Positions 2,220 to 23,944 of a stretch of 24,558 nt of DNA are shown here, one piece after another; position 1 is the first letter of the stretch, and each line of letters starts with the position of its first letter. The notes under the pieces were generated by a model, which saw nothing but the letters and a program-made list of their open reading frames with translations, did not search any database and was not told the origin of the DNA. The DNA comes from a virus. A program made the position numbers and the translations under genes. The DNA lies in the IMG/VR virus record IMGVR_UViG_3300024999_000379, positions 1-24,558 of that record; one strand, given 5' to 3'.

Positions 2220-2486
2220 TTAAATATCCAACAACTCCATAAGTTCCTTCTTGAATTGGCGAACCTCTTCAAGTAACTCCTTAAACGTAGTAGCATCCGA
2301 TACCCTAACCTTGCGGTCGATTAAGAATTTAGCACATTGTGGAAGGTTTTTAAGATAAGCCAATGGTACGAGAGTTTCTTGACCGAAGTTCTTGCTATCT
2401 TCCTTTTGGACGGTACGCTTTTCGTTGACTGTGATTTGATCCGCATCAGATGTAAGACAGATTTCCTTGTTAATGTCGATTCTCAT
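2220..2486 (-). CDS. Hypothetical small phage protein
   Basis: An 88-residue acidic protein starting at ATG 2486 after AAAGGAAG. The sequence begins with a beta-rich stretch (MRIDINKEICLTSDADQ) and ends in an amphipathic helix (FKELLEEVRQFKKELMELL). The layout is like that of small phage proteins of the DUF5405 type, but the match is too weak to name. It is co-directional with its neighbours. Confidence 0.7.
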   Translation of the reverse strand: MRIDINKEICLTSDADQITVNEKRTVQKEDSKNFGQETLVPLAYLKNLPQCAKFLIDRKVRVSDATTFKELLEEVRQFKKELMELLDI

Positions 2487-2504
2487 ACTGCACTTCCTTT
2501 TCGT

Positions 2505-2699
2505 TTATTTGATAAGTTTGGATAAATAGCTTTTGACCTGTCCTTCAGATAATTCAATCCGGCCGAACCACTTGCTCCGAATGATTTTTGAATCCTTGGT
2601 AACTTGCTGATCTAGTTGTTGCTTCGCTTGATATTGCAGCCGTCTTTTCTGGTCCTTTCTCACCTGATTACCTGCTTTCTGGTGTTGCGTTGGAATCAC
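2505..2699 (-). CDS. Small basic hypothetical protein
   Basis: A 64-residue, Lys/Gln-rich protein with a GTG start at 2699 that directly follows the TAG of the 35-codon gene upstream. No good ribosome site of its own is present, so it is probably translated by coupling. The first 45 residues are highly charged and helical; the C-terminus (ELSEGQVKSYLSKLIK) looks like a short helix-turn-helix-like piece. Function unknown. Confidence 0.6.
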   Translation of the reverse strand: MIPTQHQKAGNQVRKDQKRRLQYQAKQQLDQQVTKDSKIIRSKWFGRIELSEGQVKSYLSKLIK

Positions 2700-2807
2700 C
2701 TACTTTTTCAAAGCTGCATTGAATAATTGAACATTGCGCGGGTCGCTATCCTTTCCCACAATCACCTTGGCTCCGTTTTGACCTACATAGACAACTTGCT
2801 TTTTCAT
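2700..2807 (-). CDS. Very small hypothetical protein (35 aa)
   Basis: ATG at 2807, preceded by GCGAGGA, encodes 35 residues beginning MKKQVVYVGQNGAKVIVG and ending at a TAG that touches the GTG of the next gene. The composition (alternating hydrophobic and polar, then an amphipathic end) is protein-like, and the gene fills the gap between two operon members. No family recognised. Confidence 0.55.
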   Translation of the reverse strand: MKKQVVYVGQNGAKVIVGKDSDPRNVQLFNAALKK

Positions 2808-2829
2808 TTAATTTTCCTCGCTTTCATTT

Positions 2830-3501
2830 TTAATTTGATTGTGCAGTTATTGGTAAGCTCAGGTTTAGTTTTCGATTGAATTGCGTAGTTAGCATTTGTT
2901 TCCTCTGTTGAAAGTCGGGGATCGCCAGAATTAGTCCAATGTCGATTCGCTGAAGATTCTTAATCGATTCAGCTTGATTTGGTTTTAGATATGGTCTAAT
3001 TGACGGAACCTTGCCAAGATTATGAGTTTCCTTGAATTGTTTCGTTGACATTCCTAAAACAATCCTATTAATCATGTCGAGTTCGTTCGAGAAATGATAA
3101 TGTTTTGGTTCTTCGTGCTGATCCATGATCGCTTGAGTAAATTCAGGAAAATCAGATTTAGCTTCGAGAAGATTCTTAATGAAGGTTTCCATATCATTAA
3201 AGCGACTAATGTATACTTCTTTAAATTGGGATGCTTTCTTGCCTCGATACCCCATGACCATGAAAACGAATCCATCCTTAGTCATTAGGAATTCAGGCTG
3301 TTTTTTACCTTGCTCGTTTTTATAGGTTGACTCCTGAAAGTTTAGGAGTCTAAACCGGTTACTACAATCTAAGTTTCTTAAATCCTGAAGAACGTTATCA
3401 TGTCGTTTCTCGAATTCTTCAGCCACTTGCCGGCTACTACAAAAGGCTTGTCCACTTCGTTCATAGAGATTGAATTCAGGGTTTAGCATTAATTTACTCA
3501 C
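2830..3501 (-). CDS. rha: Rha family phage regulatory protein
   Basis: The 223-residue protein matches the Rha family throughout residues 15-115: SSRQVAEEFEKRHDNVLQDL, then STYKNEQGKKQPEFLMTKDG and FVFMVMGYRGKKASQFKEVY, a highly conserved signature. Rha proteins are phage regulators, described in lambdoid phages as interfering with growth in some hosts; the exact activity is not settled. The C-terminal 100 residues are more variable. The start is GTG 3501 with GGGAGGG upstream, overlapping the end of the HTH gene by eight bases. It is in the leftward early operon controlled by the Cro-like protein. Confidence 0.9.
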   Translation of the reverse strand: MSKLMLNPEFNLYERSGQAFCSSRQVAEEFEKRHDNVLQDLRNLDCSNRFRLLNFQESTYKNEQGKKQPEFLMTKDGFVFMVMGYRGKKASQFKEVYISRFNDMETFIKNLLEAKSDFPEFTQAIMDQHEEPKHYHFSNELDMINRIVLGMSTKQFKETHNLGKVPSIRPYLKPNQAESIKNLQRIDIGLILAIPDFQQRKQMLTTQFNRKLNLSLPITAQSN

Positions 3502-3829
3502 AATCGCTGCCCTCCCCGTTCGTTACGCTTTCCCCAATGCTGACTCGCAGAACTTCCAATTCCCTAACTTGTTCCTTCAGTACTGAAATCTTTTCTCCGA
3601 TCATCGAATTAAGGAAGAAAGCTGAACTTGCTTTATAAGTTAATGAGTGGTTATTTAGAGCTTGGTGTACGAACTGCCGACTAACACCATACTTTTCGGC
3701 CACATCTCCGCCGTTGTAACCCGTCAATCGCTTGAACTCTTTTACTAATTCTTTTTCCGTTTCTTTCCCCTCCTTGACGAAAACCTTGAAAAACATTCTA
3801 AATGAGGATAGTTTTTGCAAATTTGTCAC
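3494..3829 (-). CDS. Helix-turn-helix phage protein
   Basis: The 111-residue product contains a clear helix-turn-helix at residues about 41-60 (GDVAEKYGVSRQFVHQALNN) followed by a leucine-rich helical tail (EKISVLKEQVRELEVLR) that could dimerise. It overlaps the start of rha. The start is uncertain: the GTG at 3829 lacks a visible Shine-Dalgarno, and a later in-frame ATG (MFFKVF) is no better. It is probably a DNA-binding regulator or recombination accessory factor of the early operon. Confidence 0.72.
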   Translation of the reverse strand: MTNLQKLSSFRMFFKVFVKEGKETEKELVKEFKRLTGYNGGDVAEKYGVSRQFVHQALNNHSLTYKASSAFFLNSMIGEKISVLKEQVRELEVLRVSIGESVTNGEGSDCE

Positions 3830-5423: not shown

Positions 5424-5804
5424 ATGAATGTCGGAGAGAAAATTAGATACATCCGAGGTATACGCGGTTATTCGTTAACTAAACTTTCGGAGATAAGTAA
5501 TGTGTCCTTGCCCTACCTAAGCGAAATAGAGAATGGAGTAAAATATCCTTCAAATAAAGCCTTGACCAAGATTGCCCAAGCGTTAAAGGCTAATACCTGG
5601 TTCTTTCTTGATGATAACGCTCTTAGTTTTGAGGAAATGATAAAGCTATCTGATTATGAGCCACCAGAAGACATTGTGGAATTCTTTGCCACGCGAGAGA
5701 GTCTACCGTATGCCGTCCTTGCCCGAGATTTAGCAGCAGAACAGATTGACCCCACATTTCTCCGAGAACTCCTAGAATCAATCAAGAAGATGAAAATGAA
5801 ATAG
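5424..5804 (+). CDS. CI-like XRE repressor
   Basis: The 126-residue protein has an N-terminal helix-turn-helix (YSLTKLSEISNVSLPYLSEI, residues 16-35) of the SinR/Xre type and a helical C-terminal half that may dimerise. There is no LexA-like protease domain or Ser-Lys pair, so RecA-stimulated self-cleavage is unlikely; induction would need an antirepressor or another signal. The start is ATG 5424 after AAGGGGG. It diverges from the Cro-like gene and ends at a terminator (5820-5866), so it is probably a single-gene lysogeny unit. The rightward promoter is not certain; AT-rich -10-like boxes lie at about 5390-5410. Confidence 0.82.
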   Translation: MNVGEKIRYIRGIRGYSLTKLSEISNVSLPYLSEIENGVKYPSNKALTKIAQALKANTWFFLDDNALSFEEMIKLSDYEPPEDIVEFFATRESLPYAVLARDLAAEQIDPTFLRELLESIKKMKMK

Positions 5805-5990: not shown

Positions 5991-6209
5991 GTGGTAATAG
6001 AAAAGGATTTAGGGGGGTATCTCAAGTATGTTATAGTGGACGATGATCTGGCTGTAGTTGATCCGAGGTATATGAAGGATTACGAATTATCGCTAAAACC
6101 AAGGGTTGGGAGCTTAAGGTTGCGTTATCCAAGGTTACTAAAGGTGGCGTTATATATATATTTTTCTGGTGTAGTAATGCATGTTTTACTAAAGACTATT
6201 GCAGGATAA
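5991..6209 (+). CDS. Small protein with C-terminal membrane segment
   Basis: The GTG at 5991 is preferred because AAAGGAAG lies eight to nine bases upstream; an earlier GTG at 5931 in the same frame has a poorly spaced AGAGG and would add 20 residues. The 72-residue product starts MVIEKDLGGYLKYVIVDDDL, continues as a mixed domain and ends in one hydrophobic segment (VALYIYFSGVVMHVLLKTI) consistent with a membrane anchor. It is the first gene of the replicon unit, upstream of the rep leader. It could be a membrane-associated replication accessory or copy-control protein, but no family is recognised. Confidence 0.6.
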   Translation: MVIEKDLGGYLKYVIVDDDLAVVDPRYMKDYELSLKPRVGSLRLRYPRLLKVALYIYFSGVVMHVLLKTIAG

Positions 6210-6243
6210 TAGAAATCTCCTGTCGAATTAGGAGGAAAAGGAT

Positions 6244-6288
6244 ATGGAAAAACCCTTCAGAATTCCCACCGCCAAAGTGATATTCTAA
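6244..6288 (+). CDS. 14-residue leader peptide of rep
   Basis: ATG 6244 follows a strong AGGAGG (6230-6235) at normal spacing and encodes MEKPFRIPTAKVIF, ending at TAA 6286-6288. It lies between the left arm of the inverted repeat and the rep gene and is completely covered by the predicted antisense RNA on the other strand. Such short frames precede rep in several antisense-controlled plasmids, where their translation alters mRNA folding. A ribosome starting here would cover the left arm. Protein function is unlikely; the act of translation is the probable role. Confidence 0.6.
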   Translation: MEKPFRIPTAKVIF

Positions 6289-6323
6289 AGGGCCACGCCA
6301 AGACAGGAATTTATTTATTTGTT
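6247..6323 (-). ncRNA. Predicted antisense RNA (countertranscript) of the rep leader
   Basis: A minus-strand transcript of about 77 bases would start near 6323 (promoter 6330-6358) and end at an intrinsic terminator. The stem is 11 base pairs, CCCTTTAGAAT with ATTCTGAAGGG (6292-6282 and 6263-6253), followed by TTTTT (6252-6248). One pair is G-U on this strand but a C-A mismatch on the opposite strand, so the hairpin is better on the antisense strand. An upper TCAC/GTGG helix closes a seven-base loop, TTTGGCG, containing UUGGCG, the U-turn (YUNR) loop known from ColIb-P9 Inc RNA and R1 CopA. It covers the leader peptide and the middle GACAGGA element. It should lower Rep synthesis and thus copy number. 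Confidence 0.72.
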
Positions 6324-6329
6324 ACTAGC

Positions 6330-6358
6330 ATTATAGAACAATTAAAAACTCTTGTCTA
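6330..6358 (-). promoter_or_regulatory. Promoter of the antisense RNA
   Basis: On the minus strand TAGACA (6358-6353), exactly 17 bases, then TATAAT (6335-6330). The boxes match consensus at five and six of six positions. It is stronger than the presumed sense promoter, as usual for copy-control antisense RNAs. Confidence 0.75.
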
Positions 6359-6394
6359 GATTTCCTTTAATCGAAATTTGACAGGAGATTTTTT
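6349..6394 (+). promoter_or_regulatory. Attenuator-like hairpin at the rep start
   Basis: CTCTTGTC (6349-6356) pairs with GACAGGAG (6380-6387), and AGATTTC (6358-6364) with GAAATTT (6373-6379), around an eight-base loop. TTTTTT follows (6389-6394). The hairpin hides the rep Shine-Dalgarno and resembles a terminator. The 5' arm can instead pair with the upstream GACAGGA (6302-6308), which lies inside the antisense target, giving an antiterminator alternative as in pT181 and pIP501. Confidence 0.6.
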
Positions 6395-6395
6395 G

Positions 6396-6797
6396 ATGCA
6401 AGAGAAGATGCCTAAAATGTCCAACGAGTTCCAATCCAACTTACTTATACACGATGGTCACTTAGTTGTTATTCAGGAGAGGCTAGTGAAGGTTCTGGGG
6501 CTTGATAAAGCCGTCTTCGTGCAGAAGTTACACTATTGGCTTAACACGGAGTCAGGGATAGTTATAGAGCGTAGGAGATGGGTTTATAATACCTACGAAC
6601 AATGGCGTAAGCAATCGCCTTGGTGGTCGGCTAGGACAATTAGAAGAATAGTGAAAGACCTAGAGTATTTAAAGGTTATAGTGAGCGTTGAACTTAACGC
6701 AGATAAGGGAGATCATACCAAGTGGTATACCATTGATTATGGAGTTTTAAATAAGCTATGGAGTGAGTATCTAGATGAAAATAGTGAGCATTTATAG
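6396..6797 (+). CDS. Winged-helix plasmid-type replication initiator (Rep)
   Basis: The ATG at 6396 is chosen because AGGAG (6383-6387) sits eight bases upstream; an upstream TTG in the frame would place that site inside the gene. The 133-residue protein reads as a winged helix: LGLDKAVFVQKLHYWL, then WVYNTYEQWRKQSPWWSART and IRRIVKDLEYLKVI, the layout of phage and plasmid initiators. It resembles the N-terminal half of the protein at 14335-15102. Its gene ends 30 bases before three iterons and sits behind an antisense-controlled leader, which points to origin binding. It is shorter than most initiators and no ATPase or nuclease is visible, so it would recruit host proteins. Confidence 0.68.
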   Translation: MQEKMPKMSNEFQSNLLIHDGHLVVIQERLVKVLGLDKAVFVQKLHYWLNTESGIVIERRRWVYNTYEQWRKQSPWWSARTIRRIVKDLEYLKVIVSVELNADKGDHTKWYTIDYGVLNKLWSEYLDENSEHL

Positions 6798-6809: not shown

Positions 6810-6978
6810 TTATCCACAGGGGGGAAGGTGCCTGTCCATTTTGGCCACACGCGCCTGTCCAGAATGACCATACGCGCCTGTCCATTTTGGACACATCTAC
6901 ATATACATAAACAACACGTCATAAATAACTTTACATATTATCCTATTAATAGGTTATCCACAGATAAGTTATCCACAG
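6810..6978. other. Predicted replication origin (iterons, AT-rich tract, DnaA boxes)
   Basis: Three perfect DnaA boxes TTATCCACAG lie at 6810-6819, 6954-6963 and 6969-6978, all in the same orientation. Between the first and second are three tandem 23-base iterons (6828-6896) and a 57-base AT-rich tract (about 6897-6953) that could melt, including the palindrome CCTATTAATAGG (6942-6953). This combination, next to a rep gene, is the standard architecture of an iteron plasmid origin. Confidence 0.85.
6828..6896. repeat. Three tandem 23-bp iterons
   Basis: Perfectly phased copies at 6828-6850, 6851-6873 and 6874-6896 share G(C/T)GCCTGTCCA at the left end and an A-C-A-C-like right end. Copies 1 and 3 are nearly identical; copy 2 differs in the middle. 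The CCTGTC core also occurs in the inverted repeat around the rep leader, suggesting that Rep binds both. Confidence 0.88.
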
Positions 6979-6993
6979 AAAGGAGATAGGTAC

Positions 6994-7521
6994 ATGTCCT
7001 ACGCATTCAAACAATGTGCAAAACTAGCCGGAATAGGAGAAAGCTTGGCTAGATTTTATAAGGATCGCTATGAAGAGTACTTCATCGTATCCTCGGGAGA
7101 GGGAAGGAACCGAAGATACTCTCAGCAAACCGTAGATACGCTTAAGTTCATTTCAAGATGCTATAACGACAAAAGGGATCACTCAGAGATAGTAGAAGCC
7201 TTAGACAGCCTCTATGGAGTCCCGATTGAGAACACAACAACGGAAATAATAGAAAACAGCAAAACAAAAGCAATGCAACAGGAAGATTTAGCGCATAGTC
7301 TGCACCTTATTTATGAAGAACTCCAAAGGCGAGGCAGTGTCATCCTTGAATTACAAGAAGAACTCGAAGGTATAAGGCGAACACTAGCAGAACAAGATAA
7401 GAGGGCGGAGGATAGGGCTAGGGACTCCGAGAACAGGGATGAAGAGATAATACACATGATGAGAGCAACGCAACAACAACGCAATAAACCATGGTGGAAA
7501 AGGTTGTTTAACTCGGAGTGA
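6994..7521 (+). CDS. MerR-like HTH plus coiled-coil protein, possible segregation factor
   Basis: The start is ATG 6994 after AAAGGAGAT, 15 bases past the last DnaA box. The 175-residue protein has a MerR-like winged helix (about residues 4-70, with FKQCAKLAGIGESLARFYKD and RRYSQQTVDTLKFISRCY), a long coiled coil (about 90-160) and the tail NKPWWKRLF, common in Gram-positive DUF3967-type proteins. HTH plus coiled coil is the plan of the single-protein partition factor Par of pSK1 and of RacA. Its place directly after the origin fits a role in segregation or origin binding, by analogy only. A terminator overlaps its stop codon. Confidence 0.72.
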   Translation: MSYAFKQCAKLAGIGESLARFYKDRYEEYFIVSSGEGRNRRYSQQTVDTLKFISRCYNDKRDHSEIVEALDSLYGVPIENTTTEIIENSKTKAMQQEDLAHSLHLIYEELQRRGSVILELQEELEGIRRTLAEQDKRAEDRARDSENRDEEIIHMMRATQQQRNKPWWKRLFNSE

Positions 7522-7539
7522 TATCCGGGTTATTTTTTT
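7510..7539 (+). terminator. Terminator overlapping the stop codon of the MerR-like gene
   Basis: AACTCGGA (7510-7517) pairs with TCCGGGTT (7524-7531), one G-U, around a six-base loop holding the TGA stop, followed by ATTTTTTT. It separates the MerR-like gene from the ATPase gene. Confidence 0.72.
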
Positions 7540-7619
7540 GCTCAAATTTGGCAGGAATAATGGACAGACAATGAGGCATATCTTCCACCATGAAGAGGTT
7601 CGCGAAGGGGGAATAAGCA

Positions 7620-9008
7620 ATGACCGTCAAACCTGATCCTATCTGGTTATTCTCAGACACTCTAGTCATGGTCGGACGTTTTGTTTTCAACCGTATCCAC
7701 TTAAATAAAGATTCTCACCCGAGTAAAATCATGCAAAACTGGAAGCGCAATGATGTCTGTGTAGAAACTAAGGAGCGTGGAAAGGACCATGTAACAAGGG
7801 AGTACCCCAAACTCATCAGCAAAAGTTGGAAAGGGCACAATCGAGTTTTTAAGTACAGCATACCTAATGGCCTGAAATATGAGAAACTTATCAAATCTAT
7901 CAACGATATTGTGTTTAGCCTAAAAAGTGAGGTTTTATTTAAAAGGTTGGAGAATGACCCAAAAGCTCATTTTAGCCTGACTGTTTTATCTGGTAAGCTT
8001 TTAGACCTTGTCAACTACACAAACGAAGCAGAGACTATGCCAAAGAAAGTAGGTTTATGGATACCGATCGGATGGTCGAGAAGAGGATTGGAGCAGGTTA
8101 ATTTAGCCGATAACTCGTCCAGCCATCTCCTTGTTGGCGGCTCAACGGGTGGAGGAAAGAGCATATTAGGTAGGTTAATCCTAGCATCCTTACACATACG
8201 GTACACGAGGGATGAGTGCAGGTTGTGGCTAGGGGACCTAAAACACGGGAATGGCACTGCATTATTAGGAGAAGATCCCCTATTGGTAGACAGGGTTATT
8301 ACAAGCCCCGGAGAAGTCGATGGAATGATGGATGATTTAAACGTAATCATCAGTGAACGGTATGCCCTATTCAAAAAGTATAAGTGCGATGACTTAGAAG
8401 CGTTTAATGAGGAATATCCATCTATGAAGTTACCTAGAATCATTGTTTATTTTGATGAGTATACAAAAATGGAAGGAAAGGAACTGAAACATGTAAGGGA
8501 TAAGGTTACAAAGGTTACGGGTGAATCTAGGGGTGCCGGTGTGAATTTCATAATCTCATGTCACCGTCCAACTGCAAACCTTGTTAGCGGAACTATGAAA
8601 AATAACTTTAGTGCCGTGGTAGCCTTTAGATGTAATCCCGTGTCAGCGCGCGTCTTATTGGGGGAAGACGAATGGGAAGGTTCCATGATGATAGATAGGG
8701 ATATCGAAGGTCGCGCATTATTTAAGTTCAAAGATGATGTATTGGTGCAAGTCCCATTCATTGACAATAAACTAATCAAGTCCATTATGTCAGCCTACCA
8801 AAAGCCACAAAGCGCACAAGCAGAGGTTGTGAACAAGATAACCAAGTCGCCTAAAAATATTATAAAGAAGGATGAAGATAAAAAAATAATGGATATAGAG
8901 CACTTATTACCCGAGCAATCAAGTGGACACCAACCGCAACATGCCAAATTATGTTTAGTCCAACCATTGGGCACGAATACCGAAGTGAGTAAGAAAGCGA
9001 GGGAGTGA
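7620..9008 (+). CDS. FtsK/SpoIIIE-type DNA translocase ATPase
   Basis: The 462-residue protein contains a P-loop GGSTGGGKS (residues 173-181), a Walker B strand IIVYFDEY (274-281) and the following SRGAGVNFIISCHRP segment, which matches the RAAGIHLILATQRP motif of FtsK/SpoIIIE/TcpA motors that pump double-stranded DNA. No transmembrane segment is evident, unlike FtsK or conjugative coupling proteins, and no gamma domain. The start is ATG 7620 after AAGGGGG. The gene is followed eight bases later by a replication-relaxation protein. This pair is found on Gram-positive plasmids and integrative elements; possible roles are plasmid maintenance or transfer. Terminal packaging is unlikely because this is not a terminase. 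Confidence 0.85.
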   Translation: MTVKPDPIWLFSDTLVMVGRFVFNRIHLNKDSHPSKIMQNWKRNDVCVETKERGKDHVTREYPKLISKSWKGHNRVFKYSIPNGLKYEKLIKSINDIVFSLKSEVLFKRLENDPKAHFSLTVLSGKLLDLVNYTNEAETMPKKVGLWIPIGWSRRGLEQVNLADNSSSHLLVGGSTGGGKSILGRLILASLHIRYTRDECRLWLGDLKHGNGTALLGEDPLLVDRVITSPGEVDGMMDDLNVIISERYALFKKYKCDDLEAFNEEYPSMKLPRIIVYFDEYTKMEGKELKHVRDKVTKVTGESRGAGVNFIISCHRPTANLVSGTMKNNFSAVVAFRCNPVSARVLLGEDEWEGSMMIDRDIEGRALFKFKDDVLVQVPFIDNKLIKSIMSAYQKPQSAQAEVVNKITKSPKNIIKKDEDKKIMDIEHLLPEQSSGHQPQHAKLCLVQPLGTNTEVSKKARE

Positions 9009-9015
9009 GAGAACA

Positions 9016-9684
9016 GTGGACGAGTCACTACAACGCTTCAGGGGGACAAACTGCGTGGCCTACGGTAAGAGCAGGGATGAACACATTACCAAGCTTATAC
9101 GGTCAGGTACAGCCTTTACGCGGCAACAGATTGAACAAGTTATATTCCCCAAACGCAAATCATCTAAGCGAATAGCCCAATATGCCTTAGCTAGACTTTG
9201 TAAGCAGGAAAGAATCAAGAAGTGGATTCGCGCGCCACAATTACCAACGATTTATTACTTAAGGAAACCTCGGCAGCTTGACCACGTTTTGCTTATCAAT
9301 GAAGTTTACTGCGCCTTACTCACTCAGAAAAAGTCCTGGCATGTGGTTGAATGGAAATGGTCCTACTCAATCCTTAATGGAATGGTATTCGCCGATGCTA
9401 TGGCTAATATCTATACCGAACCGGATCGCCAGGGCCGCAGGGTTATCTTTATTGAGGTTGAGCGAAATCCAAGCAAGAGGTTCAATAAACCCGAGCAATA
9501 TCAGAAGGTTTATGATGCCGATTGGGTGCAGGAAGAATGGTCTGTGATTAAAGATAGAACCGCCATATTCCCCACAATCCTTATCGTGACCGATGATGCT
9601 CCGGCCATTAAGAGTGAATTAAACTTCGTTGTAGCATCTATTGAAGATGTCAAGAAAGATGTTTACTCGATTTTAAGGAGGTAG
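9016..9684 (+). CDS. Replication-relaxation family protein
   Basis: The 222-residue protein begins with a winged helix (TRQQIEQVIFPKRKSSKRIA, then LARLCKQERIKKWI) and continues with a region containing FADAMANIY and VIFIEVERNPSKRF, an Asp...Glu-x-Glu layout resembling the Replic_Relax family and reminiscent of PD-(D/E)xK folds. Members are reported in plasmid replication and relaxation. GTG 9016 starts seven bases past the ATPase stop with GGGAG upstream, so the two are co-expressed. A DNA-processing partner of the ATPase is the natural inference; an enzymatic activity is not proven. Confidence 0.72.
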   Translation: MDESLQRFRGTNCVAYGKSRDEHITKLIRSGTAFTRQQIEQVIFPKRKSSKRIAQYALARLCKQERIKKWIRAPQLPTIYYLRKPRQLDHVLLINEVYCALLTQKKSWHVVEWKWSYSILNGMVFADAMANIYTEPDRQGRRVIFIEVERNPSKRFNKPEQYQKVYDADWVQEEWSVIKDRTAIFPTILIVTDDAPAIKSELNFVVASIEDVKKDVYSILRR

Positions 9685-13406: not shown

Positions 13407-14318
13407 TCAGGAAACTTCCTTCGTTCTCTTTTTATAATCAGGCCATGCTACAGATTTAAAAGTTGGCTTGAAGTTTACCCATCTTGCAAAATCTGCTTGA
13501 TGTGGATCCTTTTTATCGTATGGCATAACGAATGGATTAACACCTAAACTCTTTAACATTTCTACTCTATATAGATCCTCATCAACCGTTGTGTCGTACC
13601 CTATTAAAACATAGAACATCAATTTGTCCGGAACTATATACTTTGTTAAAATACTTATTCCCTCTAAAACGATCTGTTCTAAGTCCATTGAGTCCCAAGC
13701 GAATCTCAAATAGCCCTTTTTAGTCAACCTACTCCTTCTGAATAACCGAACCCTTGAGAGTCTTTTTGCCTTATCGTCATCAACTAGCCTAATATCTAAG
13801 CCTTGACTAAAATCTGTTCTTATTTTGTGCTTAATCACTTGTCCAACTATTAAATTAAAGTGATCTGGATCCCCTGTTAGGTTATTATCCATTATCATAA
13901 TGTGTTCTTGTCCTTGCCAGAACTGATGTATATCTGCTACTGGGTGCAGTCGCCCCTCCTTAATGGGAACGATACAGAAAGAGCAACTACGATTGCATCC
14001 GCGACTACAAAAACCAGAAGCGATATTCGTATTGTATAGCGAATAGTCAGGGCATAGCTTTTCTACTTCATCAGGTAGTTCAGTAGTTAGGTCAAGCCCA
14101 CTTCCACCTTGGATTATTTCGCAATCTGGATAATATAGGTACTTAGGGGAATCCTTGAAAACCTTTGAGGAATAGATTCTGTCAGGTTTATCCGACTTAA
14201 TATCAAACATTGGGTCGAACATCTTGACTGTATCTCCCAGACCTTTATGGTAATTGGAGAGTTTCATCAAGGCTAAGTTAGGCATTTTGCTATCGACATC
14301 GACTAATCCTATTTTCAA
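13407..14318 (-). CDS. Radical SAM enzyme with B12-binding-like N-terminus
   Basis: The 303-residue protein carries the iron-sulfur motif C108-NRS-C112-SF-C115, embedded in GFCSRGCNRSCSFCIVPIKE as in MiaB-like radical SAM enzymes. Residues 1-90 (KIGLVDVDSKMPNLALMKLS) resemble the Rossmann-like cobalamin-binding fold but lack DxHxxG, so cofactor binding is doubtful. Later segments (MIMDNNLTGDPDHFN, DFSQGLDIRLV, MFYVLIGYDTT) fit the barrel. Radical SAM enzymes use a reduced 4Fe-4S cluster to cleave SAM. Substrate unknown; modification of nucleic acid or a host metabolite is possible. The gene lies between small phage genes and a replication protein. Confidence 0.85.
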   Translation of the reverse strand: MKIGLVDVDSKMPNLALMKLSNYHKGLGDTVKMFDPMFDIKSDKPDRIYSSKVFKDSPKYLYYPDCEIIQGGSGLDLTTELPDEVEKLCPDYSLYNTNIASGFCSRGCNRSCSFCIVPIKEGRLHPVADIHQFWQGQEHIMIMDNNLTGDPDHFNLIVGQVIKHKIRTDFSQGLDIRLVDDDKAKRLSRVRLFRRSRLTKKGYLRFAWDSMDLEQIVLEGISILTKYIVPDKLMFYVLIGYDTTVDEDLYRVEMLKSLGVNPFVMPYDKKDPHQADFARWVNFKPTFKSVAWPDYKKRTKEVS

Positions 14319-14334
14319 TTATTACTTCATCCTT

Positions 14335-15102
14335 TCAATAATAACTTATTTGTCTATCAAAATTTCGCCTTGATGCTTTCAGAAATGCTAGTATGTTCCC
14401 GTTATTTGTTTTAGCAAGAGTATTGAAATGTTCCCTTACTCCATCCGTAAATTCTTCCACATCGACTCCTGCTTCTATTAATTCATCTACAGCACCAGTT
14501 GCTATGGTCATATTAGGTTCTGATAACTTCATATGTTTCTTCTTGAACTTTCTGTAGAAGAACTCCCCGTAAATCTTAAAGAAAGAATTATATCCGTCAG
14601 TTGGCAAACTGATGTATATATCTTTTATTACCTTAGGATTATTGGACTTAGTATTATTTGCTCTCCCATATAGAGTTTTTGTTTCTGCTACTTTGGTTCC
14701 TTTAATTCCTCCCATAAGACGTAATTGGGCTGTGGCAAGGGTTTCAGCTTGCTTGATCTTGCCTTTTACTAGTAAGTCTTTCAGGAGAGGTTCGTTGTCT
14801 AAAATAGTAAAATGTCTTTTAGGAGGCATTCCTCTTCTATCAATATCTATTAGTCCTAATGATTCCAGACTCTTAATTGCGGTCCTTTGCGCCTTCTCTC
14901 CCAAGCCTGTTCCTGATTGTAAGTCACTGATAGTATTGTAGAAGTAACCGTCTCCTGTTAGGTTTTCCCTGTCTGAGAAATAGTTGAACCTTGATACTAA
15001 TTCGGCATAGATAATGGATTCGTGTAACCCAATGGCGAAGATCAAATTCTTGTTAATGACTATGCTTCCATCTGCCCTGAGTAGGTCATAAATGGGATTC
15101 AT
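14335..15102 (-). CDS. Phage replication initiation protein (winged helix)
   Basis: The 255-residue product has an N-terminal winged helix: VINKNLIFAIGLHESIIYAE, YFYNTISDLQSGTGLGEKAQ, then RTAIKSLESLGLIDIDRRGM. This is the layout of phage replisome organisers and plasmid RepA-N-like proteins. The C-terminal 110 residues (from about 150) are helical and may contact DnaD or a helicase loader. The N-terminal domain parallels the 133-residue Rep at 6396-6797. It starts at ATG 15102, overlapping the antitoxin stop by four bases. It is probably the lytic replication initiator; no helicase gene is visible in the window. Confidence 0.75.
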   Translation of the reverse strand: MNPIYDLLRADGSIVINKNLIFAIGLHESIIYAELVSRFNYFSDRENLTGDGYFYNTISDLQSGTGLGEKAQRTAIKSLESLGLIDIDRRGMPPKRHFTILDNEPLLKDLLVKGKIKQAETLATAQLRLMGGIKGTKVAETKTLYGRANNTKSNNPKVIKDIYISLPTDGYNSFFKIYGEFFYRKFKKKHMKLSEPNMTIATGAVDELIEAGVDVEEFTDGVREHFNTLAKTNNGNILAFLKASRRNFDRQISYY

Positions 15103-19083: not shown

Positions 19084-19113
19084 AGAGCAGGAAATTAATC
19101 CTGCTCTTTTATT
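19084..19113 (+). terminator. Terminator of the moron
   Basis: AGAGCAGGA (19084-19092), loop AATTAA, TCCTGCTCT (19099-19107), nine perfect pairs, then TTTATTTTA. It overlaps the stop codon of the convergent 1611-residue gene and may act weakly in that direction too. Confidence 0.88.
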
Positions 19114-22100
19114 TTATGAAAAACTTTTTGGAATAAGTTTCTACCCGTTGCATTTCCTTTGCATCCTTAGCTGAATTAGCCTTCATGGTCAGTTGTAACA
19201 TCTGAGTCTTGATAGTGTTAATCTTGGATTCCTTGTCAGGATCAGAGCTAGCCTGAATTTTGTTTATCTGCTTAGTTCCCCTGCTTAACGCCGCGCTTAC
19301 GCCAACCATAGAGTTCTTAATATCTTCCTCTTTGGTTAACTTTTTAGCAGGTATCTTCTCAATGATGTTCTTGTCCACAGCGGCAGCAGAAAGTTTATCC
19401 AACTTATCATAAAAGTCTGTAGTCGCTTGATTACTGAACTTGGGGTCTGACGAGAATTGGGTTGACAGAACTTTGCCGGGACTTCCGCCCGGAACCAATA
19501 AAGGAGTTCCGAACTGACCGATTACCCCACTATACGACTTGACTAAATAGTCCAATTGCTTTGGAGATATTCCACTGGGTAGACCTGGAATGTCGGTGCT
19601 TAATTTTCCTATCTCTTTGGCAATTTGCGTGGTCTTATCATCGTACTGAAGATACTTTGAACGCTTATCCATAAGCATACCTTGTGGAACGATTGCCCGA
19701 TTAGCGAAATCGCGATTCGTTGCAATGTTCCAGGTCGCAGGAGAGAAGAAGTTGCTGTCGATTGGATTGGCAGGACTGAAATTAGTAGCTACAGTATTTC
19801 TGAAGCCTTTAAGGGGTTCCTTCTGTCCTTCTGCTGCCCTCATACTTCTCTCGAATAAGGACCCAAACAATACGCCCAACTCTCTTGATTTGGGGACTTT
19901 AATAAACGTTTTTCCACCTTCCTTCGGTATCAGAAAGTAGCTATCCTTGGTTCGATTATCCAACGCTTGATAATTAGGATTGTCCCTATTTATCATATAG
20001 AGAGCAACGTCAGGGACAGTAATGGCAACCCCTGCCTTAGCCATTGTCGCAAGTGCAACCTTGGGAGAGGAAAACCCCCTAAAGAAGCGGTCAAGCCCTT
20101 GGACCCCGGCGTTGGCGTACGGTGTAATTTTATCCACATTCTTTGTGATGTTTCCACCCCTAGAGAAATTGACAGTCACGTCGTTCGCCGAATAAAGAGC
20201 TTTTGTAATATCGTTTGTCTTATCCAGAACCCTATTAAACTCCGCCAAACGCGGTATGGTTTCCGTAAGAGTGTTAAATGATTCGATAGCCTTAATAGGT
20301 TTCATTGCAATTTTCTTAACCATGCTTCCTTTGTCCATCAATTCGGCAGCCGATTTTGTAACATCACCATTCGAAAAGAAGTTTCCGCCACCGCCGCCTA
20401 CCGCCTTGTACTTCTGTAAGCGCGGGCTATTGGTTAGAACGTCTTTTCCTGCACTAAGAAGACCTTTACCAAATTTAAATGGATTTGACTCCGACCCGTA
20501 CACGTAGGATGTAGGAATATCCCTGAAAATGTTTCTAATGGCAAATAATGGATTCTTTTGAGTTATCAGACTTTTGAATCCATTCGTCAATGTACTGAGA
20601 ATCGGAATATTACCTATCGACTTAGGTAATCCATTCATTGCGTCCAGAAGCATCTTGTCGTTGATCTTCAGGTAAACAGGTTTACCATCTTCAAGAACGG
20701 TGATGATGTTGTCCAAATTACTGAACATTCCATCCTTCGTAGGAATAACCTCAGCAAGTGGATTAAGCTTTTCAGGTGCCTCCCTGACTGAACTCAGCAA
20801 GCTTTGTCCAACTTCATTATATTTTGCCGTTCTAATTGTTCGGTCAACTAAATTCATAATGTTTTCAATCGGGTCCTTGATGTCGCGTTCTGAACCTGAC
20901 ATCTTGCGAATAGGCGTGCGTTGATTAGCGAACTTCTGCGAGACGTTATCAGAAATAGACTTTTCGAGTTCGCTGAAATCCCTTTGAGTCGGGAAATAAC
21001 TCTTATACGTTTTTCTTAATCCCGCGTAAATTTCCTTGTTAACGATACCCGTATCGACGCCCCATGTGTTCATGAAGGAATCCAACCATTTAACAATGCC
21101 ATCCCCAATAGCTTTATACTCAGGATTATCTCTCTCTGCAATTCTTACCGCATCCCTAGACATCTTAGATGTATAGTTAGCCTGAACTGGTGTAGGCTTC
21201 TTGTCGATAACCTTGTCATAAACTTGATTTCCATCCTTATTTTTGACTAAGAAACCTTGCTTATCCACCTTGGGGACTTGATGGCTAACCTCTGCAGCCC
21301 TATCAATATTATGGCGCTGTGACATATAGGTCCAGAACTTTTCTTCCTGCCCATTGGGGATAGCTTCCACAGTTGACTTTAAGGATTCCCCAACTTTATT
21401 ACCCCGCTTATCAACTAATGCTGTCAAGAAGTTGTGGTCAATAATACCGCTAACATTCTTCGTATTGCTTGCCAACTTTCCTATATCCGACCCAGTAACC
21501 TTGGCAGCATTAGCAATAGGTTGTTGAGTATTAACAATGGCTGTATAGAATTTATCCCAAGCGTTTTTAAAGTTTATTTTTTCCTTTTGCTTGCCGATAA
21601 TTATCTTACTTTGCGGTTCAGGAAGAATAGGATCTGCTGAAGCACCGAACATCTGCAAGTTCATTTTTAGCCTGACTTCCTTAGCCATCTCAGGTGGTAG
21701 CTCATCAATGCTAACCTTTCCCGACTTAATACCTTCCTGCAAAGATGGAATGTCGCCTTGCCATTTGGATTCCGACTTGACCTTATTCCAGAAGATATTC
21801 TCGTTAACTATTTTTCTAGAAGCCACCAACTTCGGATCCATTACAACCCCATCAGCCTTAGTGGTACCTAGTTTCTCCCTGATAGGGCTAACATCTTGAT
21901 AGCCTAATGCTAAGCCAAGCTCCCTTTGTTTTAATGGGGAATAATCATTATTAGTAATAGCTTTGGCCACCTTATTAAAGGATTCCGTATCCCTTGCCAC
22001 AAGCCCCACCATGTTACCCGTCTGTGTTCGAACTTTTCCAATAGGTAAGTTATGATCTTTTGCGAAAATTTCCATTTCAGGAGTTAGTGAATTTTCTAGA

Positions 22101-23944
22101 TAGGCAGGCTTTCCGTTTAATATTTGTGACATTTCCCATTGTTTTGAAGGTCCTAATATTTTTTCCCACTCAGCTATATGAGCTTGCCGACTCTCAGGAG
22201 TTGGGTATTTTTGATGAAATTCATCCATAGACTTTCTGTATGGATTTTGCTCAAGATACTGATTATAAGTTCCCCACTCTTCCTTATAACCCCTACGATT
22301 TATTCCTTTGTTATCACCAACTCTGGCAATCTCCAACTTACTAGGAACATCAACCCTCTTCGGAATCTCCCCACTCTTAACTGGTTTATTTACTACAGGT
22401 ATACCTTCCTTATTCGTCCATGTCAAAGGTTTCCCCCTGACTGAAGTAGGAATTGGAGCATCCATAACTTCCTGCGGAACCATACTCGTCCATGATTTTC
22501 TAGGTGCTAAATCAGGGATAATGCCTGCCGCCCTACCCATACTACGTTCCTGTGGAGCCATTACGTTCTTTGTCGATTGTGCCTTTTCCCATTTTGAAAT
22601 TAGTTCAGGAAGATTAACTCCCGTATTCTTGGCTATATCGTCATACGCTTGAGAAATGGTTGTGCCTTGCGGATACCCTGCCAATACGTCAGTATGTCCA
22701 ATGTAGTTTTGCGCGGCTTGTATGCCATCCTGAAGCTCACTCATAGCCCTTTGTTCGCTAGTAGTAAAGGAATACTTTCCTTGGTTTGGCAGGTCGTTAA
22801 ATAGTTTTTGTAATTCACCCTGCTTAGTATTGCGAACTGAATCAGGGATAGGATTAATAACGCTTGGGGTTTTATCAACCCCTGCATCATATTTTACCGC
22901 ACTCTTCCGTAATTCTTCGGATTTTATGTTTTCAAGAGTAGGAGGTTTATAAGCGTTCTGCACATCCTCAAGAGGATTAACCTTTACCCCATTTGCCTTA
23001 ATAGCCGCCGATAGCTTTGCTCCTTGCTCAAGAGTAAGTGCATCATTCGACTTAAGTGGTCCTAATCCAGTTTTGCGTTGGACATTGTAGGAGGGACGCA
23101 TAGGACCGTATGGTTCAGCAGGGACACCGAGAGGCTTGACTAATGACTTAACACCACTTATTCCTTCTCCAATCCCCTTAAATGCCCCTCTTGCTACTGC
23201 CCCACCTAATGCAATGGTCGGAACCTGTTTTTCCCTATTAATAAGGTCCTGCCAAGTTCCATTCTGCTGAATATTTTCTACGGGAGATACTACTCCAGAG
23301 TACGTCGCGGCATCCGTCAGCCCACCCTTGATAAAGCTAGGTATTTTAGAACCGACCTTATTAGCCGTCGAAGCAAGAGCAGGGGATAATTTACTCAATC
23401 CTTTACCCAAGACTCCCACAGCACCTTCGCCCGCCATCCACAATGGTATTTGAGGAACCTGTTCACCGAGCATGGCAGGAAATGAATTAACCGGATTTGC
23501 TTCTAAATAACTCTTACTAGCCTGTATTCCTGTTAATTGCTGTTTCCCTAAGTCAGCCATACCAGGTAACGGATTCTTTGTTAGCATATTGGCAATATCA
23601 GCATTTTGCTTAACTGCACCAGTTCTCGACAATCCATGAGCTAGCCCTAACCCAACCTGACCAGGCAAGCCTTTAATATCCCCTGCTTTTATCTGGTCCC
23701 ATGTTGAGGGTTGAGTAGGTTGAGCAATAGGCACACTCACAGCATGTGAAGTAGTCAAGTATTTTGAGAAGTCAGTGGAAGTGTCTTCGTGGAACTCAGG
23801 TTGCGTGGTGGCGAGGGAACTAGCTTGAACAGGAGGCTTCTCTAATCCAAAGAATGAATATGGGTCGCTCTCCTTCTGAGTAATTGTTTTTTTCTTCTCA
23901 TTCGGATCATCTATCCCAAAATAACTGTATGCACTCCCCATCAT
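19109..23944 (-). CDS. Large LPD38-type virion protein
   Basis: The 1611-residue protein starts at ATG 23944 after AAGGGGG. It begins with two copies of Y-S-x-F-G-(I/L)-(D/E) (YSYFGIDD at 7-14 and YSFFGLEK) and is Pro/Ser-rich up to about residue 200. The C-terminal third has PYANAGVQGLDRFFRGFSSP and FLIPKEGGKTFIKVP, as in large polyvalent proteins with the LPD38 domain, found in podovirus-like phages. Ala/Gly-rich hydrophobic helices (KVALATMAKAGVAITVP) could interact with membranes. With the adjacent transglycosylase it is likely an internal, ejected protein that helps genome entry. Very large for a single gene; no break seen. Confidence 0.72.
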   Translation of the reverse strand: MMGSAYSYFGIDDPNEKKKTITQKESDPYSFFGLEKPPVQASSLATTQPEFHEDTSTDFSKYLTTSHAVSVPIAQPTQPSTWDQIKAGDIKGLPGQVGLGLAHGLSRTGAVKQNADIANMLTKNPLPGMADLGKQQLTGIQASKSYLEANPVNSFPAMLGEQVPQIPLWMAGEGAVGVLGKGLSKLSPALASTANKVGSKIPSFIKGGLTDAATYSGVVSPVENIQQNGTWQDLINREKQVPTIALGGAVARGAFKGIGEGISGVKSLVKPLGVPAEPYGPMRPSYNVQRKTGLGPLKSNDALTLEQGAKLSAAIKANGVKVNPLEDVQNAYKPPTLENIKSEELRKSAVKYDAGVDKTPSVINPIPDSVRNTKQGELQKLFNDLPNQGKYSFTTSEQRAMSELQDGIQAAQNYIGHTDVLAGYPQGTTISQAYDDIAKNTGVNLPELISKWEKAQSTKNVMAPQERSMGRAAGIIPDLAPRKSWTSMVPQEVMDAPIPTSVRGKPLTWTNKEGIPVVNKPVKSGEIPKRVDVPSKLEIARVGDNKGINRRGYKEEWGTYNQYLEQNPYRKSMDEFHQKYPTPESRQAHIAEWEKILGPSKQWEMSQILNGKPAYLENSLTPEMEIFAKDHNLPIGKVRTQTGNMVGLVARDTESFNKVAKAITNNDYSPLKQRELGLALGYQDVSPIREKLGTTKADGVVMDPKLVASRKIVNENIFWNKVKSESKWQGDIPSLQEGIKSGKVSIDELPPEMAKEVRLKMNLQMFGASADPILPEPQSKIIIGKQKEKINFKNAWDKFYTAIVNTQQPIANAAKVTGSDIGKLASNTKNVSGIIDHNFLTALVDKRGNKVGESLKSTVEAIPNGQEEKFWTYMSQRHNIDRAAEVSHQVPKVDKQGFLVKNKDGNQVYDKVIDKKPTPVQANYTSKMSRDAVRIAERDNPEYKAIGDGIVKWLDSFMNTWGVDTGIVNKEIYAGLRKTYKSYFPTQRDFSELEKSISDNVSQKFANQRTPIRKMSGSERDIKDPIENIMNLVDRTIRTAKYNEVGQSLLSSVREAPEKLNPLAEVIPTKDGMFSNLDNIITVLEDGKPVYLKINDKMLLDAMNGLPKSIGNIPILSTLTNGFKSLITQKNPLFAIRNIFRDIPTSYVYGSESNPFKFGKGLLSAGKDVLTNSPRLQKYKAVGGGGGNFFSNGDVTKSAAELMDKGSMVKKIAMKPIKAIESFNTLTETIPRLAEFNRVLDKTNDITKALYSANDVTVNFSRGGNITKNVDKITPYANAGVQGLDRFFRGFSSPKVALATMAKAGVAITVPDVALYMINRDNPNYQALDNRTKDSYFLIPKEGGKTFIKVPKSRELGVLFGSLFERSMRAAEGQKEPLKGFRNTVATNFSPANPIDSNFFSPATWNIATNRDFANRAIVPQGMLMDKRSKYLQYDDKTTQIAKEIGKLSTDIPGLPSGISPKQLDYLVKSYSGVIGQFGTPLLVPGGSPGKVLSTQFSSDPKFSNQATTDFYDKLDKLSAAAVDKNIIEKIPAKKLTKEEDIKNSMVGVSAALSRGTKQINKIQASSDPDKESKINTIKTQMLQLTMKANSAKDAKEMQRVETYSKKFFIK

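Follow-up and report, generated by a model that had tools for sequence, protein, structure and literature searches.

The window analysed here, the whole stretch of viral DNA that was examined, is one complete linear IMG/VR record of 24,558 bases and probably a genome fragment. Between a repressor gene and an FtsK-like gene it carries a structured leader, a short initiator gene (rep), a stretch of repeats and DnaA boxes, and a gene for a MerR-like protein. The features are as follows.

5424-5804, + strand: cI-like repressor (HTH_3, E 7e-10), left border of the exchangeable slot
6214-6394, + strand: leader of the rep mRNA, with four alternating blocks A-D (z -6.7; both alternative hairpins predicted)
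6219-6224, + strand: leader block A, CCTGTC
6302-6307, + strand: block B, GACAGG, pairing with C in the pre-emptor hairpin
6351-6356, + strand: block C, CTTGTC, pairing with B or D
6380-6387, + strand: block D, GACAGGAG followed by T6, pairing with C as terminator
6209-6358, - strand: predicted antisense RNA running leftwards over B and A, its 3' end uncertain
6358-6353 (-35, TAGACA) and 6335-6330 (-10, TATAAT), - strand: antisense promoter, spacer 17, 11/12 consensus
6396-6797, + strand: rep, a 133-aa O-like winged-helix initiator (phrog_6493, E 1.6e-28), with ATG at 6396 and an internal ATG at 6408
6810-6818, + strand: DnaA box 1, exact TTATCCACA, kept in 5/5 lineages
6830-6895, + strand: three candidate Rep iterons of 23-bp period, pseudo-palindromes TGTCCA-NNN-TGNNCA whose half-site varies with Rep residue 76
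6897-6953, + strand: AT-rich tract, candidate unwinding element, 75% AT, strongly conserved
6954-6962, + strand: DnaA box 2, exact TTATCCACA, kept in 5/5 lineages
6969-6977, + strand: DnaA box 3, exact TTATCCACA, in the window only among five related origins
6994-7521, + strand: MerR-type wHTH, long helix and short C-terminal helix KPWWKRLF (MerR_1, E 1.5e-4, a weak match)
7620-9008, + strand: FtsK/HerA-like ATPase (FtsK_SpoIIIE, E 9e-12), right border of the slot and outside the replicon
9016-9684, + strand: Replic_Relax-family protein (PF13814, E 2.2e-9), not specific to the plasmid form

An earlier sequence-only reading had described the stretch at 6810-6978 as an origin, and its anatomy is as claimed. 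Three phased 23-base iterons begin at 6830, 6853 and 6876 (spacing 23 and 23); the repeats are 75-95% identical to the first copy, and each contains one pseudo-palindrome TGTCCA-NNN-TGNNCA (6833-6847, 6856-6870 and 6879-6893). The three perfect same-strand DnaA boxes, TTATCCACA at 6810, 6954 and 6969, are all on the + strand, the 57-base AT-rich tract at 6897-6953 is 75% A+T, and the whole does lie just after rep, the stop codon of which is at 6797. The best equally spaced repeat triple scores 41, against a maximum of 33 in 2000 dinucleotide shuffles of the intergenic stretch and at most 34 in all other tiles of the window. Three TTATCCACA(G) boxes on one strand within 169 bases occurred in 0/2000 shuffles of the window, and the A+T content of the tract is attained by about 1% of 57-base windows. 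The phased direct repeats adjoining rep are thus above chance in their phasing, and they are conserved in five lineages. Close Rep homologues (78-89% identity) occur in seven viral contigs, which represent four lineages besides the window, and all four have the order rep, DnaA box, three or four repeats, AT-rich tract, DnaA box and MerR-like gene. The conserved words of the tract read ATCTAC..ATACATAAA.AAC..CATAAATAAC..TACATATTATC.

What kind of initiator is Rep? The protein aligns with positions 5-116 of the 261 in the phrog_6493 profile and stops there, so that the C-terminal helicase-loader part is absent, with the same end in the four other lineages. Structure prediction confidently gives a winged helix (pLDDT 84). 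A Pfam scan gave no family at E up to 1, the RepA_N model included. The top structural matches of the model include the RepA_N N-terminal folds 4pql, 4pt7, 5kbj and 4pta (Z 9.4-10.1 over 110-118 residues, rmsd 5.4-6.1, 10-12% identity), with unrelated winged helices also at Z 8.4-10. Among the more distant relatives, full-length O-like initiators (225-440 aa) predominate. In 33/39 full-length O-like genes the gene itself contains an array with the period seen in the window, mostly right after the winged-helix part and outscoring each of the 20 codon shuffles; the repeats in or after the O-like winged helix of phages are 21-25 bp long. Since the arrays sit at this point of the O-like genes, the window, as judged by this comparison, carries the first half of such a gene together with the origin repeats; a stop codon precedes the repeats, and the rest of the gene is missing. 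The O-like and DnaD-like phage initiators (phrog_6493, phrog_428, Phage_rep_O) have a homologous winged helix with repeats directly after it, whereas the window gene ends before the repeats, lacks the loader part and has DnaA boxes added.

The winged helix also has matches on plasmids of Lactobacillus gasseri, L. johnsonii, Bandiella, Selenomonas and L. plantarum; these initiators are longer, and most have their repeats within the gene and no DnaA boxes. Three L. gasseri/L. johnsonii plasmids of 75-127 kb (L168, L169, L172) encode full-length O-like initiators with in-gene 23-bp repeats. On a Candidatus Bandiella plasmid (L170), a 443-aa Rep-related winged-helix protein at 2363-3694 lies beside parA/parB and is a candidate plasmid initiator in Alphaproteobacteria.

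The repeats are near-uniform inside one genome and divergent between genomes, with half-sites of TGTCCA in the window and G001, TGATCA in G002 and G004, and TGTTCA in G007. Among Reps with recognition helices of the form S-x-x-T-[IV]-[RK]-R, residue 76 is R with a TG[TG]CCA half-site (5/5) and M or S with T at half-site position 4 (16/16). Because residue 76 and the half-site change together, the repeats are probably Rep sites. This co-variation is strong evidence that Rep binds its repeats, though short of formal proof, since other recognition-helix types (TLKR, TIIR) go with different sites and common descent links the sequences counted.

DnaA boxes flank all 5/5 origins of Reps that consist of the winged helix only, but perfect boxes are found within -400 to +600 of only 2/39 full-length O-like genes. 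The contrast would fit a shift from Rep-borne to DnaA-borne helicase loading. Considering that Rep, an O-like winged helix, has no loader domain, helicase loading is probably supplied via the DnaA boxes. Origins with HTH_36 Reps (see below) have no perfect DnaA box, and hence DnaA is not essential to the class.

The sequence-only reading had gone from iterons and DnaA boxes, with no integrase in view, to a phage-plasmid lifestyle. That conclusion is well supported, but the reason given for it is weak by itself, because integrating phages carry such repeats, beside a winged helix, inside O-like genes. Iterons next to rep were accordingly rejected as proof of a plasmid, the same repeats occurring in the O-like genes of ordinary phages. 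The support comes from three other observations, namely the exchange of the cassette with integrase in one slot, the plasmid-type leader on rep, and a likely partition gene that can be replaced by ParA.

The 200 nt upstream of rep fold far better than shuffled sequences (z -6.7). Within the leader of about 180 nt, the C:D hairpin and its T run stop one or a few bases ahead of the start codon, and the terminator covers the Shine-Dalgarno sequence. The B:C hairpin is predicted to compete with C:D, and the antisense promoter lies inside the B:C loop, pointing left. Terminator, pre-emptor hairpin and antisense promoter are all predicted in 16/16 distinct leaders, the promoter at the equivalent place with 9-11/12 consensus bases; conservation of its -35 is not independent, because it overlaps the conserved arm C. 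Single-leader z-scores span -1.9 to -6.5, L154 and L164 reaching just -1.9. Models of the leader (a covariance model and an HMM) reached strong scores in Rep records only, and not in the integrase records or in about 70 other phage loci. The leader has no Rfam match, and neither it nor the cassette has DNA similarity to named phages or plasmids. The A-B loop, at about 6266-6280 of the window, reads CCGCCAAAG in most leaders; the antisense copy includes UUUGGCGG, which resembles the UUGGCG loop motif of plasmid antisense RNAs.

Searches with the MerR-like protein and with leader patterns revealed that this one leader precedes four initiator types. The first is the winged helix of the window. 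The second is a 128-aa Phage_rep_O-like protein with different repeats, CCCCGAAAGAATCTT, again flanked by DnaA boxes. The third, an HTH_36 protein of 167-173 aa, has its repeats inside the gene and lacks a DnaA box; the fourth is a second HTH_36 protein of 169 aa.

Several of the closest known systems are plasmids. In pT181, a terminator containing the ribosome site is combined with a pre-emptor and a counter-transcript (PMC5703833), and pIP501 uses RNAIII attenuation (PMC4981023). The window leader is predicted to share with these the terminator at the rep start codon with its ribosome site, the pre-emptor pairing and the counter-transcribed RNA. No sequence relation was found, by Rfam or by plasmid matches, and unlike those leaders it controls phage-type initiators, with no CopR-like gene identified. 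The Reps of the RepA_N plasmids pSK41 and pSK1 have an N-terminal winged-helix domain; these plasmids have semi-palindromic repeats that converge on an A tract, with rep under antisense control, and pSK1 has a MerR-type single-protein partition system (PMC5703833, PMC7145576). Winged helix, semi-palindromic repeats and (as predicted here) antisense control recur in the window; however, RepA_N Reps have a C-terminal domain and the window Rep lacks a Pfam RepA_N match. DnaA boxes were not detected in the staphylococcal plasmids, one of which, pPR9, has its N-terminal domain and origin exchanged for a phage-like HTH_36 domain under a constant control region, a precedent for initiator exchange under one leader (PMC5703833). 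Judged by its predicted pairings, the leader has the build of a plasmid-type antisense/attenuator, which would control rep by copy number.

The second line of support comes from relatives that share the FtsK region, collected via the FtsK-like gene to the right of the cassette. Ten lineages bear a tyrosine or serine integrase. The integrase upstream of FtsK is of the tyrosine type in G008, G012, L132 and L133 and of the serine type in G009, G011, G013/L138, G015 and L140/L141. Every relative with a visible upstream region and no Rep has an integrase there. The record of G014 (57,887 bases) opens with FtsK and closes with a serine recombinase, which is what a cut between the two in a circular or permuted genome would give. 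The gene order in G015 and L132 is repressor, recombinase, FtsK; L132 is a prophage within a 400-kb contig of Desulfosporosinus nitroreducens, where Replic_Relax follows FtsK. Wherever the region is visible, a homologue of the cI-like repressor stands ahead of the leader in the other Rep lineages; in G015 one precedes the serine recombinase. As gene order indicates, the Rep cassette and integrase exchange at the same position among relatives.

The remark of the sequence-only reading that no integrase was in view carries little weight alone in a linear record that is probably a fragment. More telling is the larger set: PF00589 and PF00239, the two Pfam models that defined the search (recombinases of other types being outside its scope), matched 0/24 records with the Rep cassette or MerR-like gene, among which, although records may be incomplete, are some of 67.7, 66.5, 65.8, 59.9 and 57.9 kb. 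The Mu-type rve transposase was absent from the first set of Rep/MerR-like records. All records are linear and metagenomic, without a circular form or end repeats, and G005 terminates within the head-gene block. Rep was not found in bacterial genome contigs, and 73 genomes of the Desulfosporosinus order contained only three distant, longer proteins.

Exchange of this kind has precedents. Cluster A mycobacteriophages such as RedRock and Miko carry parABS, and some RepA, where close relatives have tyrosine or serine integrases, and they are extrachromosomal; here likewise a replication cassette with a candidate partition gene takes the integrase place. The initiators differ, the partition system is ParABS and the origin mostly RNA-based, with no repeats near repA and DnaA unmentioned in that report (PMC7157519). 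Among P1-like elements, phage-plasmids have been converted into integrative prophages (PMC10879196).

The phage nature of the family is evident from a lysin and a virion-type transglycosylase in the window, terminase in G005 and G007, and portal and major head protein in G007. Further window genes, all on the - strand, encode a DNA methyltransferase-like protein (27-620; phrog_757, 6e-46), a phage radical SAM family protein (13407-14318; phrog_9298, 1.2e-75), and a 1611-aa protein (19109-23944) that adjoins the virion transglycosylase, matches only families of mostly unknown function and is possibly an injected internal virion protein. A second O-like initiator of 255 aa, without clear in-gene iterons, is encoded at 14335-15102 (-) and has a homologue in L181 (57%). 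This gene, and a primase/helicase gene in G005, may serve lytic replication.

The third line of support is the MerR-like gene. The modelled protein has a 75-residue helix (89-163), a short helix (167-172) and a basic/aromatic C-terminus. Like pSK1 Par, RacA and RocS, it combines an N-terminal MerR-type wHTH with a coiled coil, and its short C-terminal helix is reminiscent of the amphipathic one in RocS and Par, but there is no significant sequence match to these proteins (PMC11500499). The best fold matches are MerR regulators (Z up to 10.9), the RacA DNA-binding domain scoring 8.6; pSK1 Par (8csh) is not among the structure matches listed, and no DUF536 match is listed for the coiled coil in Pfam scans, where an HMM may miss distant members. 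The gene was seen in integrase-less records only. In L188, ParA (PF13614, 2.5e-56; phrog_164) and a 152-aa ORF replace it between Rep and FtsK; PF13614 found no ParA in the first 20 records. The 152-aa ORF (7431-7889, -) follows ParA, has no family match and is a candidate ParB-like partner.

The RacA/Par/RocS-like architecture, the restriction to integrase-less records and the ParA replacement suggest partition as the likeliest role. Perhaps the protein is instead a transcription regulator, or excisionase-like, with the replicon otherwise as described. This is a possibility of some weight, though the less probable one: the model fits MerR regulators equally well, and phage Xis is among the weak Foldseek matches, but against it stand the confinement to integrase-less records, the long helix with its basic/aromatic C-terminal helix, and the substitution by ParA.

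Taken together, the stretch is very probably the origin of a replicon of plasmid type, by means of which the prophage stays extrachromosomal. Could it be a lambda-type lytic origin, with Rep and iterons starting vegetative replication only and the prophage integrating by some unrecognised means? Ordinary phages do have the same iteron type in an O-like gene right after the winged helix, and the initiator families here are phage-type. On the other hand, rep is on the cI strand and in the integrase slot, the predicted attenuator/antisense control suits low-copy upkeep, the second O-like gene and the primase/helicase gene of G005 sit elsewhere, and neither integrase family nor rve was found, so that we consider a purely lytic origin unlikely. 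It is quite improbable that the three repeats are a centromere or operator of the MerR-like protein and not Rep sites. MerR-type proteins bind palindromic sites, and the repeats sit between rep and the MerR-like gene; yet the same repeat type occurs inside the O-like genes of other phages, varying with the Rep recognition helix, and in L162 and L165, where the Rep type changes, the repeats change too while the MerR-like gene stays. Finally, there is very little chance that FtsK and Replic_Relax are signs of a mobilisable plasmid and form its actual replication or transfer module. The Replic_Relax family is plasmid-associated and FtsK has relatives on plasmids; yet the two genes are also carried by integrase phages of this family, and in G004/G005, which retain the Rep cassette, neither gene could be detected. 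They were rejected as the replicon.

How might the extrachromosomal replicon work? Anatomy and conservation, integrase exchange, Rep/iteron co-variation, attenuator pairings and MerR-like/ParA replacement are results of sequence comparison; from them we infer the activity of each part, the DnaA role, the partition function and low copy number. During lysogeny, RNA polymerase would transcribe rep from the cI strand and, where the B:C hairpin forms, would read through to the gene. Antisense RNA from inside that hairpin would pair with B and A, freeing C for D, and C:D pairing would end transcription at the rep start codon, so that more copies would mean less rep output. The winged-helix Rep would bind the three palindromic iterons. 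Because it lacks the C-terminal part of full-length O-like initiators, we propose that the task of opening the AT-rich tract and recruiting the host helicase probably falls to DnaA, bound at the flanking boxes. The MerR-type coiled-coil protein would then segregate the copies.

A broader reading, to which we give about even odds, is that of a phage-plasmid family built of interchangeable parts. One leader would drive at least four short initiators (about 128-173 aa), reduced to little beyond the DNA-binding half; for two of the types, an origin that lay inside the gene in lambda style would have moved out of it and become DnaA-dependent through added boxes; a new MerR-type single-protein partition family would be replaceable by ParA; and the whole cassette would swap with tyrosine or serine integrases at one site. 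Integrase-for-replicon exchange itself is already known from the cluster A mycobacteriophages (PMC7157519). New here are the way these parts are combined, initiators that are shortened and accompanied by DnaA boxes, the leader common to four initiators and the putative partition family.

Related phages that differ in one cassette form a natural series, in which the choice between an integrated and a plasmid prophage could be tested by exchange. The family suggests a route from a phage lytic origin to a DnaA-assisted plasmid origin, and it offers Rep residue 76 as a testable candidate for Rep-iteron specificity. It is also a source of candidate parts for copy control and partition, apparently in anaerobic hosts of the Desulfosporosinus type.
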